Shown piece by piece: positions 30,577 through 33,885 of a DNA stretch of 64,000 nucleotides (positions within the stretch are counted from its first letter, which is position 1; every line of letters starts with the position of its first letter). The notes beneath the pieces are model-generated. The model searched no databases, was not told the DNA's origin, and was given only the letters and a program-made list of their open reading frames with translations. Both the position numbers and the translations under genes were made by a program. Source of the DNA: a bacterium (GTDB lineage: Bacteria > Myxococcota_A > UBA9160 > UBA4427). Location: positions 1 to 64,000 of the forward strand of contig JANSYR010000011.1 of assembly GCA_024742285.1 (NCBI GenBank), given 5' to 3'.

Positions 30577-31443
30577 CTAGAGCCCGGTGGGCCGGTTCGT
30601 GAAGCGTCCGGCCTGAGGCGAAAGGAACCAACCGCCACCGGCGAGGGTGCCGCCGTCCACCGGCAGGTTGTGCCCGGTCACGAAGCTCGAAAGGTCCGAG
30701 GCGAGGAAGAGGGCGGCGCGCGCCTGCTCTTCCGGCCAGCCGAGACGGCCGACCGGATCCCAGGAGGGCCAGAGGTGTTCGTGCTCCTCCCACCCGGTCC
30801 GGTAGTCGACCTGTGGCGTCTGGCAGAGGTCGGTGCCGATCCCGTTCACGCGGATGCCGTTGCGCCCCTGGCCGACTGCGAGACTGGTCGTGAAGTGCGC
30901 GACCGCGGCCTTCATCGCCGCGTAGATCGGTTCGCCCGGATAGCCGCGCATGCCCTCGACGCTGTGGAAGTTCACGATCGATCCGCCGCCCCCTTCGATC
31001 ATGGCGTCTATGAAGGCGTGGGTGACGCGCACGACGTGCAGGAAGTTGATCTGGTACATCGCGTCCCAGGTCTCCGGCCCCGACTCCCGGAACGGAGCGA
31101 GCGGGCGGTAGTCACCGACGTTGTTCACGAGGACGTCGATCGTCGCGTGCTCGGCGAGCACCGCCTCCTTCAACCGCTCGACGTCCGCGGGCTCGCGAAC
31201 GTCGACGTCGTGGGTCCTCGCCGCGCCGCCGGCCGCCTCGATCTCGGCGACCGCACGGGCGCCGCGTTCGGGGTCGATCTCCGCGATCTCGACCTTGGCC
31301 CCGTGCTGGGCGAAGAGCCTCGAGATCGCGCCGCCGATCCCGTCGCCGCCTCCGGTCACGACGGCGACCCGGCCGTCGAGGAGGCGGTTCCAGTCGGAGA
31401 TCTTCGGGACGTCGCTGGGCTGCTGGCTGCTTTCAGGGGGCAT
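30577..31443 (-). CDS. Short-chain dehydrogenase/reductase
   Basis: 288 residues of classical SDR form: VVTGGGDGIGGAISRL (NAD site), VDVREP (cofactor-acid preference), VLVNNVGDY, catalytic Ser in NFHSVEGMRGY, and catalytic YAAMK. The short N-terminal extension is rich in Ser/Pro/Gln. Substrate unknown, probably a lipid or cyclic alcohol. Tail to tail with the Nudix gene, 31 bases downstream of the peroxiredoxin gene on the same strand. Confidence 0.88.
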   Translation of the reverse strand: MPPESSQQPSDVPKISDWNRLLDGRVAVVTGGGDGIGGAISRLFAQHGAKVEIAEIDPERGARAVAEIEAAGGAARTHDVDVREPADVERLKEAVLAEHATIDVLVNNVGDYRPLAPFRESGPETWDAMYQINFLHVVRVTHAFIDAMIEGGGGSIVNFHSVEGMRGYPGEPIYAAMKAAVAHFTTSLAVGQGRNGIRVNGIGTDLCQTPQVDYRTGWEEHEHLWPSWDPVGRLGWPEEQARAALFLASDLSSFVTGHNLPVDGGTLAGGGWFLSPQAGRFTNRPTGL

Positions 31444-31474: not shown

Positions 31475-31921
31475 CTAGCGATCGCGGAGGATCGTCAGGG
31501 CGCGGTCGGCGTGGCCGGTCATGTCGATCTCGCTGTTGACCACGCCGAGCAGGGTCCGGTCGGTGTCGATCACGAAGGTCGATCGCTTGCTCGGGAGGGG
31601 GCCGAAGCGTTTCACGCCGAAGAGCTTCGCTACCGCTCGATCCGGATCCGAGAGGAGGGGGAAGCCGAGGTCGTTCTTGTCGTCGAAGGCCTTCTGCCGA
31701 TCCACCGGATCGGCGCTGATTCCCGCGCGCTGGGCGCCGAGCTCGCTGAACTCGCTCGCCAGGTCGCGGAAATGGCAGCTCTCGATCGTTCAACCCGGCG
31801 TCATGGCCTTCGGATAGAAGAAGAGGACGAGCGGCCCGTCCACGAGCAGCTCCGAGAGCCGTACTTCGCGACCCGACTGGTCGGTCGCGCTGAAATCATC
31901 GATCACGTCACCGGATTCCAT
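31475..31921 (-). CDS. PrxQ/BCP-type peroxiredoxin, predicted selenoprotein (Sec44)
   Basis: Read through an in-frame TGA at 31790-31792 the gene gives 148 residues, a normal PrxQ/BCP length. The family motif YPKAMTPG-x-TIESCHFRD has the TGA exactly where the peroxidatic cysteine belongs (residue 44), and the resolving Cys is at 49. Homology continues on both sides in the same frame (GFPLLSDPDRAVAKLFGVK). GGAGGA lies six bases before ATG 31921. Selenocysteine peroxiredoxins are known in bacteria. A candidate SECIS hairpin is next. A pseudogene or sequencing error is the alternative, but the exact Cys position argues against it. It reduces peroxides with thioredoxin. Confidence 0.82.
31754..31779 (-). 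promoter_or_regulatory. Candidate bacterial SECIS hairpin
   Basis: Ten bases after the UGA, GCUGCCA pairs with UGGC-g-AGC (7 bp, one bulged G) around an 11-base loop. The apical loop starts 17 bases after the UGA, within the usual bacterial range. The loop lacks the early G common in SECIS loops, so confidence is modest. Confidence 0.4.
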
Positions 31922-32073: not shown

Positions 32074-33153
32074 ATGCGGGATCGTTGGAGCAGGGCGCGC
32101 CGTTCGGGGCGGACGCGGGCGGGCGGACCGGCCCCGTTCGTTCTGGTCCTGCTCGGGCTCGTCCTCTGGTCCGGTCCCGCGCTCGCCTTCCGCGTGATCG
32201 GCTCACCGGCGGGCTGGGCGCGCTGGGACGCTGCCCCGCGCTTCGTCGGTGGTGAGGAACGCTCGCTCGCCGGGGGCCTTCGGTATTCGATCGAGCACGG
32301 GGACTACGGGCTCCTCCTGAGCGAGGTCGAGTGGGTGCCCGGTACCGAACCCACGGAGCCCGAGTTCGCTGAGCTGATCGCCAGCGCCTTCGAACACTGG
32401 GAGGTCGTCGATCCTTCGACCGCGCTCCCGGCGGCCTTCCACTTCGTCGAGGACCTGTCGACGCCCGCGGTCGACGACGCGCCGACGAATCCGAGCAACC
32501 CGAACGCTTTTCTCGGACTCAACGCCGGGGCCGAGATCGACATCTTCGTAGCGACGCCCCACGCGGGTTCGGGATATGGCGCCAGCGTCATCTTCTTCGT
32601 GGACACGGTCGAGGACGACTTGACGCTGACGTCGGGCACGACGGGATACCCGGGGCTGGCGATCACGGGCGCCGACATCCGGATGAGCGATACGATCGCG
32701 TTCACGCCCTCGGCCTTCGAGACCTTGCTGACCCACGAGATCGGTCACGCCCTCGGGCTCGCGGACCTCGAAGCCTCTCCCTTCAGCGCCAGCGTCTCGG
32801 GTTTCATCGACGACGACTACGACCCCACGACCGACACGTCGGTCCACGCGACGACCAGCAACTCGTTCGCTCTGCTGATCGATCCTCTCGACCCCGACCT
32901 CTCGCCGCTCTTCGCCTTCAACGGCAACATGAAGACGAGCCCCGGTCTCGACAGTCCCCAGGTGCGCCTGCTGATGGAGAGCGACGACTGGCTCTCGCTG
33001 CGCTTCGTGGATCCGAAACTCCAGAACGACGAGTTTGCGGGCCGCCAGTTCCTCTATCCGGTCCCGGAGCCCGGCATGGGCTCGATGCTCGTCTTCGGAG
33101 CGGCGACCCTCGGGCTGCTCGCCCGCACGCGATCCGTGGAGAAGGCCCGATGA
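32074..33153 (+). CDS. Secreted matrixin-like metalloprotease with PEP-CTERM anchor
   Basis: 359 residues. A signal peptide (PFVLVLLGLVLWSGPALA) is followed by a metalloprotease domain with LTHEIGHALGLAD, the zinc motif HExxHxxGxxD. The C-terminus is VPEPGMGSMLVFGAATLGLLARTRSVEKAR in parts: a PEP motif, a hydrophobic helix and a basic tail, that is, a PEP-CTERM sorting signal for exosortase. Its product would be exported and attached outside. The stop overlaps the next ATG (ATGA), so the DJ-1-like gene is coupled. Confidence 0.83.
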   Translation: MRDRWSRARRSGRTRAGGPAPFVLVLLGLVLWSGPALAFRVIGSPAGWARWDAAPRFVGGEERSLAGGLRYSIEHGDYGLLLSEVEWVPGTEPTEPEFAELIASAFEHWEVVDPSTALPAAFHFVEDLSTPAVDDAPTNPSNPNAFLGLNAGAEIDIFVATPHAGSGYGASVIFFVDTVEDDLTLTSGTTGYPGLAITGADIRMSDTIAFTPSAFETLLTHEIGHALGLADLEASPFSASVSGFIDDDYDPTTDTSVHATTSNSFALLIDPLDPDLSPLFAFNGNMKTSPGLDSPQVRLLMESDDWLSLRFVDPKLQNDEFAGRQFLYPVPEPGMGSMLVFGAATLGLLARTRSVEKAR

Positions 33154-33782
33154 AGATCCAGCTCCTCACCTATCCCGACATGACGCTCCTCGACATGGTC
33201 GGGCCCCTTCAGGTCTGGTCGCTCTGGCCCGAGGTCGAGGTCGAGCTCGTCTGGAAGTCGACGGATCCGATCCCGACGGACTGCGGTCTCCCGGTCGTCC
33301 CGACCCGGTCCTTCGCCGACGCCTCCGAGACGACAGACATCCTCTTCACGGGCGGTGGGCTCGAAGGCACGACGCGAGCGATGGCGGATCCCGAGGTGAT
33401 CGAGTTCATGCAGTCGCGCGGCGAGCACGCCGGCTGGGTCACGAGTGTCTGCACCGGGGCGCTGATCCTCGGCGCGGCGGGTCTCCTCCAGGGCTACCGG
33501 GCGACGACCCACTGGATGGCCCTCGACGCACTCTCGAATTTCGGTGCCGAGCCGGTCAAGGAGCGCTGGGTGATCGATCGCAACCGCGCGACCGGGGGCG
33601 GCGTGACCGCGGGGATCGACTTCGGCCTCGCGCTGATGGCGGAGATCGCCGGAGAGGACGTCGCGAAGGCGGTCCAGCTCGGCCTCGAGTACGCCCCGCA
33701 GCCGCCCTTCGATTGCGGGACGCCGGACAAGGCGACGCCGGAGATGGTCGCGGCGGTCGGTCAGCTCTTTCGCGGGAGCTGA
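33150..33782 (+). CDS. DJ-1/PfpI family protein (isonitrile-hydratase-like)
   Basis: 210 residues. The nucleophile Cys101 sits in SVCTGALILGAAGLL, the elbow of the DJ-1/PfpI fold, with D15 in LLDMVGPLQV near the active site. Both resemble isonitrile hydratase more than DJ-1 chaperones. It overlaps the upstream protease gene by four bases. Its 3' end (LFRGS-stop) is the first unit of the 21-bp repeat array, whose units each repeat these final codons and the stop. Confidence 0.82.
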   Translation: MKIQLLTYPDMTLLDMVGPLQVWSLWPEVEVELVWKSTDPIPTDCGLPVVPTRSFADASETTDILFTGGGLEGTTRAMADPEVIEFMQSRGEHAGWVTSVCTGALILGAAGLLQGYRATTHWMALDALSNFGAEPVKERWVIDRNRATGGGVTAGIDFGLALMAEIAGEDVAKAVQLGLEYAPQPPFDCGTPDKATPEMVAAVGQLFRGS

Positions 33783-33885
33783 AGGCTCTTTCGGGGGAGC
33801 TGAGGGCTCCTTCCCGGGAGCTGAAGGCTCTTTCGGAGGAGCTGAAGGCTCTTTCGGAGCAGCTGAAGGCTCCTTCAGGGGAGCT
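33765..33885. repeat. 21-bp tandem repeats copying a gene's last codons and stop
   Basis: TGA recurs at 33780, 33801, 33822, 33843 and 33864, exactly every 21 bases, each preceded by a variant of CTCTTTCGGGGGAGC. The first unit is the coding end of the DJ-1-like gene, and the last unit reaches the stop of the convergent holin-like gene (33875-33877). Each unit can form a GGCTC/GGAGC hairpin, so it may end transcription from both sides. Confidence 0.75.

Follow-up and report, generated by a model that had tools for sequence, protein, structure and literature searches.

A selenocysteine peroxiredoxin gene with a covarying GGU hairpin 83 nucleotides after its UGA codon

Introduction

Does a UGA codon that interrupts a peroxiredoxin gene at its active site specify selenocysteine (Sec), and, if so, where does the RNA signal for its recoding lie? 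The question is raised by a gene on the minus strand of a 64,000-nucleotide (nt) stretch of bacterial DNA (GenBank assembly GCA_024742285.1, contig JANSYR010000011.1, lineage Myxococcota_A), referred to below as the window. An initial annotation, made from the letters of the window only, had read this gene as a selenoprotein split by ordinary gene calling and had placed a hairpin resembling a Sec insertion sequence (SECIS) 10 bases downstream of the UGA. Here we report that the Sec forms of this gene, and not its cysteine (Cys) forms, carry a covarying hairpin 83 nt after the UGA, which is probably the displaced part of a bacterial SECIS.

Results

The gene and its UGA codon were defined as follows:

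31475..31921, minus strand: predicted Sec-peroxiredoxin gene of the PrxQ/BcpB type, 148 codons plus TAG (translation with TGA read as U, Pfam and PDB matches)
31790..31792, minus strand: UGA codon, almost certainly for Sec, at the peroxidatic position (TGA in 45 and TGC/TGT in 30 close relatives)

Read from 31921 to 31475, the open reading frame (ORF) contains a single in-frame TGA and ends in TAG. With the TGA translated as U, the product reads MESGDVIDDFSATDQSGREVRLSELLVDGPLVLFFYPKAMTPG-U-TIESCHFRDL..., and the UGA occupies the peroxidatic cysteine site (FFYPKAMTPG-U-TIESCHFRDL; TPG-U-T), as the initial annotation had noted. Its further statements, that a resolving cysteine follows five residues past the UGA and that standard calling would truncate the gene, agree with our results: a possible resolving cysteine is present there, and conventional calling yields only a 76-residue ORF with a GTG start (31475–31705). 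The Pfam AhpC-TSA match (4.5e-33) covers the UGA, and the read-through product is a complete AhpC/TSA-fold peroxiredoxin for which 5epf is the best PDB chain (2.5e-48, phmmer). As its score against NCBIfam PRK09437.1 (thioredoxin-dependent thiol peroxidase, equivalog) is 94.8 bits, below the curated cut-off of 140 bits, the gene is filed as PrxQ/BcpB-like and not as a PRK09437.1 equivalog. A short-chain dehydrogenase gene (30577–31443) lies 31 nt downstream on the same strand, in a possible operon.

The host genome (6.5 megabases, 95% complete) encodes all of the predicted machinery: (i) SelA (522.9 bits, contig C4); (ii) SelB (283.9 bits, contig C1), a protein of 655 residues that has kept the C-terminal winged-helix domains; (iii) SelD (259.4 bits, contig C16); and (iv) tRNA-Sec with the anticodon UCA (67.8 bits, contig C13). 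Of 26 related genomes tested, 23 yielded tRNA-Sec and 25 yielded SelA. Relatives from the same genus, the same family and the same order have a single TGA at the same place in the gene, and of 13 further genes from 12 relative genomes (72–87% identity) 12 have this single TGA and one has TGT. Since alignment of the 75 close relatives, of Sec and Cys types, revealed only TGA, TGC or TGT at the active-site codon, we consider it nearly certain that the peroxidatic residue is Sec. A pseudogene, an assembly error or a plain stop codon would also lead standard gene calling to divide the gene, but such an origin has a negligible probability, given that dozens of separate assemblies, drawn from two phyla, carry the identical active-site UGA, that the frame is intact on both sides of the UGA, and that the Sec machinery is complete.

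Judged by its sequence, the gene is a genuine selenoprotein gene of a known kind, in which Sec presumably has the catalytic role. Sec-containing peroxiredoxins, mentioned in the initial annotation, are indeed established in published surveys as the Prx (TxxU) family (pfam00578/COG1225), with members from the Sargasso Sea and Global Ocean Sampling (GOS) surveys, Anaeromyxobacter and other deltaproteobacteria (PMC1088965, PMC2398784, PMC1794560). The present gene shares the TxxU active-site motif, its in-frame UGA is aligned to the peroxidatic cysteine, and its host possesses the machinery.

The structure that distinguishes the Sec genes lies well beyond the UGA:

31696..31714, minus strand: putative displaced SECIS hairpin GCCGAUCC-GGU-GGAUCGGC, 19 nt, 8 base pairs (bp) (pairing and double changes)
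31704..31706, minus strand: apical GGU, invariant in Sec genes; the loop begins 83 nt after the UGA

We compared 44 aligned Sec genes with 30 Cys genes, scoring presence on 45 Sec genes. Over a region that reached 30 nt upstream and 150 nt downstream of the UGA, RNAalifold gave −17.6 kcal/mol for the Sec genes, −0.7 kcal/mol for the Cys genes and approximately 0 for synonymous permutations; no element of the fold was stronger than the GGU hairpin. The pair cells of the GGU hairpin are paired in 98.6% of cases in Sec genes and in 40.1% in Cys genes; at least seven of the eight pairs can form in 45 of 45 Sec genes and in none of the 30 Cys genes, and the hairpin is present in the minimum free energy (MFE) structure of every aligned Sec gene (44/44) and of no Cys gene (0/30). 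The apical GGU occurs in 44/44 Sec genes and 11/30 Cys genes, and all 44 aligned Sec genes place the loop 83 nt from the UGA. The MFE of the 19-nt hairpin is −12.9 kcal/mol in the window and ranges from −14.9 to −6.8 kcal/mol (mean −11.6) in the set.

Four of the hairpin pairs have changed on both sides among the Sec genes. Structure covariation amounted to 24 double-changed cells in Sec genes, a number reached by none of 500 shuffles, with no such signal in Cys genes. The codons of the two arms change together (CCG..GTG, CAG..GTT, CGG..GTC, TCG..GTG-AGT), the pairing being kept while the amino acid encoded by the 5′ arm is P, Q, R or S; the divergent Sec gene L123 has ACGACCA-GGU-UGGUCGU at the hairpin site. 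When the structure drawn from the window's own fold was tested in Actinomycetota, the hairpin was 98.8% paired, with 20 double changes. A covarying GGU hairpin is thus confined to the Sec genes, and this Sec-linked structure, together with the machinery and the alternation of UGA and Cys codons, supports the proposal of selenocysteine at the peroxidatic position. No Rfam family matched above its gathering score (the best chance match had 19.4 bits), and a covariance model searched against 98 relatives and 379 genomes of the phylum returned only the Sec-peroxiredoxin gene, plus weak matches with E-values of 0.01–0.03.

The published bacterial SECIS (bSECIS) model requires 16–37 nt from UGA to apical loop (PMC13188914), together with a stem of 4–16 bp, a small G-first loop of the form N1 G[G/U] N N2, and an MFE of −7.5 kcal/mol or lower. 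Like the canonical element of the Escherichia coli fdhF type, the GGU hairpin lies in the reading frame, and its 8-bp stem, C-GGU-G loop and MFE fit the model; it differs in the distance of its apical loop from the UGA, 83 nt, and in the insertion of a 65-nt spacer hairpin. Could a canonical but poorly conserved SECIS exist at 16–37 nt, with the distant hairpin an enhancer or pausing element rather than the SelB site? Diversity is a known property of bacterial SECIS elements (PMC13188914, PMC12013277), and single genes do contain weak local hairpins. However, a G-loop hairpin is not conserved at 16–37 nt, the mean best-stem score being 7.3 against 7.7 for synonymous permutations; near-range G-loop hairpins vary from gene to gene, 14 of the 44 Sec genes lack any of 4 bp, and RNAalifold predicts no conserved structure in this range, while the far hairpin is found in every Sec gene. 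Furthermore, the lineage is able to make a local SECIS: a clear one is found in a paralogue from the same genome. We therefore regard a near SECIS as improbable. A local structure drawn by hand as a candidate SECIS proved wrong, with approximately 35% pairing.

Between the UGA and the GGU hairpin, three further features were delineated:

31780..31789, minus strand: 10-nt linker from the UGA to the folded element (effective path 10 nt in 41/44 Sec genes)
31715..31779, minus strand: predicted 65-nt spacer stem-loop with a GCUG...CAGC base (fold z, pair counts)
31739..31753, minus strand: spacer tip hairpin GAGUUC-AGC-GAGCUC, loop not conserved (paired cells 97.0% in Sec, 68.4% in Cys)

In the fold of the window the spacer forms one closed stem-loop, and the GGU hairpin starts directly at its 3′ end. 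The spacer folds in silico better than its synonymous permutations in Sec genes (mean z −2.7) and scarcely so in Cys genes (−0.22). Its base helix, GCUG:CAGC, appears in the MFE structure of 40 of 44 Sec genes and of none of the 30 Cys genes, and 41 of 44 Sec genes leave 10 unpaired nt between UGA and hairpin, with no Sec gene exceeding 16 nt. Over the whole structure the pair counts include 47 double-changed cells (0/500 shuffles). The hairpin placed 10 bases downstream by the initial annotation is accordingly correct in one respect and not in another: folding does set in about 10 nt past the UGA, in agreement with the 11 nt reported for the E. coli upper stem-loop (PMC8659212), but the conserved G-loop hairpin is at 83 nt.

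The Sec genes cluster together in a maximum-likelihood tree, with two returns to Cys nested among them, one in the window's genus (L052/G003) and one in Acidimicrobiia (the L087–L103 group), and both revertant lineages lack the GGU hairpin. Genome G003 still has tRNA-Sec and SelA (two SelA matches). There (L023/L052, G003:C117), TGT replaces TGA at the same locus, with the DJ-1/PfpI gene kept beside it, a Sec to Cys reversion in place. The Cys PrxQ/Bcp proteins (PDB 5epf and actinobacterial relatives), represented in the tree by the 30 Cys genes, belong to the same fold family and are similar in sequence; the Sec genes differ in having Sec in place of Cys and in the RNA structure. While the nearest named relatives of the window's gene are from Myxococcota, the remainder of the Sec clade is from Acidimicrobiia and other Actinomycetota. 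Because the Myxococcota sequences are one supported group nested within the Sec clade, the tree (L051–L129) suggests lateral transfer of Sec-PrxQ between Myxococcota and Acidimicrobiia with the RNA structure intact.

Other Sec peroxiredoxins were identified in these genomes. A second subfamily (FTPGUTxEARDF), with nine genes in the order (L034, L035, L036, L037, L039, L040, L042, L043 and L046), has a 42-nt stem from 8 nt after the UGA, followed by GCGCCGA-GGUCG-UCGGCGU with its loop 59 nt from the UGA; the fold is −31.1 kcal/mol in Sec and −3.8 kcal/mol in Cys genes. Its predicted plan looks similar to that of the window's gene, although it is the weaker case, since the loop of its first hairpin is itself within the canonical range. 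A wider search for this subfamily at the level of the order found no new Sec sequences. The paralogue mentioned above (L130, C12:28178–28624; STPGUTRQGHGF), the second UGA-containing peroxiredoxin gene of the host, has an ordinary SECIS, CACGG-GUU-CCGUG, with the loop 17 nt after the UGA; its orthologues are L133 and L137. A third type (L134, L135, L136, L138, L139) is hydrophobic at its N terminus and has CGCUG-CGUGA-CAGCG as a near hairpin.

Elsewhere in the window, the DJ-1/PfpI gene occupies 33150–33782, and at its 3′ end a 21-bp unit is repeated 5.8 times in tandem (33764–33885); a second array, of a 29-bp unit (4.8 copies), is at 1034–1173.

Discussion

The GGU hairpin appears to be the SECIS that recruits SelB, although its binding by SelB is a prediction. 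We think it likely that these genes use a split SECIS of bacterial type, divided by a spacer hairpin that is looped out. In this mechanism, (i) the 65-nt spacer would fold closed from 10 nt past the UGA and abut the GGU hairpin, so that the folded path from UGA to loop would shorten to about 18 nt (10 nt plus the 8-nt arm), inside the canonical range; (ii) with the UGA in the ribosomal A site, the GGU hairpin would, by this geometry, lie near the mRNA entry; and (iii) SelB carrying Sec-tRNA-Sec, recruited by the hairpin, would recode the UGA as Sec. The part assigned to the spacer is deduced from its predicted folding.

Several observations weigh against this proposal. Conservation is lower for the outer spacer pairs (77.7–91.3% of cells) than for the hairpin, and in six Sec genes (L058, L065, L072, L074, L126 and L123) the base helix of the spacer is incomplete. 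The covariance-model search gave no second gene of the same genome and no held-out member. Only three phylogenetically independent Sec/Cys contrasts are available, all consistent, a number with which a sign test cannot reach 0.05. Finally, one strand of the spacer base has two possible partners that exclude each other, GCUG of that base and GUUGA, which includes the UGA:

31790..31794, minus strand: GUUGA, 5′ strand of a possible alternative helix containing the UGA (paired cells 99.1% in Sec, 45.5% in Cys)
31715..31719, minus strand: UCAGC, 3′ strand common to the alternative helix and the spacer base (pair counts)

Both pairings of UCAGC are more often retained in Sec genes than in Cys genes. 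The GGYUGA:UCAGC helix may be the functional lower structure, with the spacer secondary, or the two may form in turn, as a switch in which the UGA stays hidden until a ribosome melts this helix. All five of its pairs can form in 42 of 44 Sec genes, some of which lack the spacer base's AGC codon. The glycine codon before the UGA is only GGT or GGC in Sec genes, whereas any GGN occurs in Cys genes. On the other hand, the helix shows no double change, because the UGA and the amino acids dictate most of its bases; it must melt once the UGA is in the A site; and the single-sequence MFE of the window favours the spacer base. We regard this alternative as rather unlikely, and it is a variant of the split-SECIS proposal, as the GGU hairpin remains the SelB site. 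It is possible that the UGA helix would form in free mRNA and the spacer base after melting by the ribosome.

Action at a distance is also known for the SECIS elements in archaeal and eukaryotic 3′ untranslated regions, for example at 88 nt from the UGA in Methanococcus maripaludis fruA (PMC9622424), but the element described here is a bacterial-type hairpin within a coding region, in a host with a bacterial SelB. In the open literature searched, we found no bacterial SECIS beyond 16–37 nt; as most subscription papers were outside that scope, novelty is provisional. As far as this literature shows, the recoding signal would be an undescribed variant of the bacterial SECIS.

Selenoprotein prediction builds in the rule that a bacterial SECIS immediately follows the UGA. 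Yet some genes fail the bSECIS model and unknown classes have been suggested (reviewed in PMC13188914), and in one test 13% of known genes escaped bSECISearch (PMC12013277). Such a class has a concrete candidate in the element at 83 nt, which covaries and is specific to Sec genes. With somewhat less confidence than for the single gene, we favour a second class of bacterial SECIS, a split element in which a looped-out spacer would bring in a SelB-binding G-loop hairpin from 60–85 nt after the UGA, used by at least two Sec-peroxiredoxin subfamilies in two phyla and possibly including a helix that sequesters the UGA. The element hints at how a recoding signal can be combined with an active-site sequence under constraint; it also makes the spacing rule for SelB directly testable.
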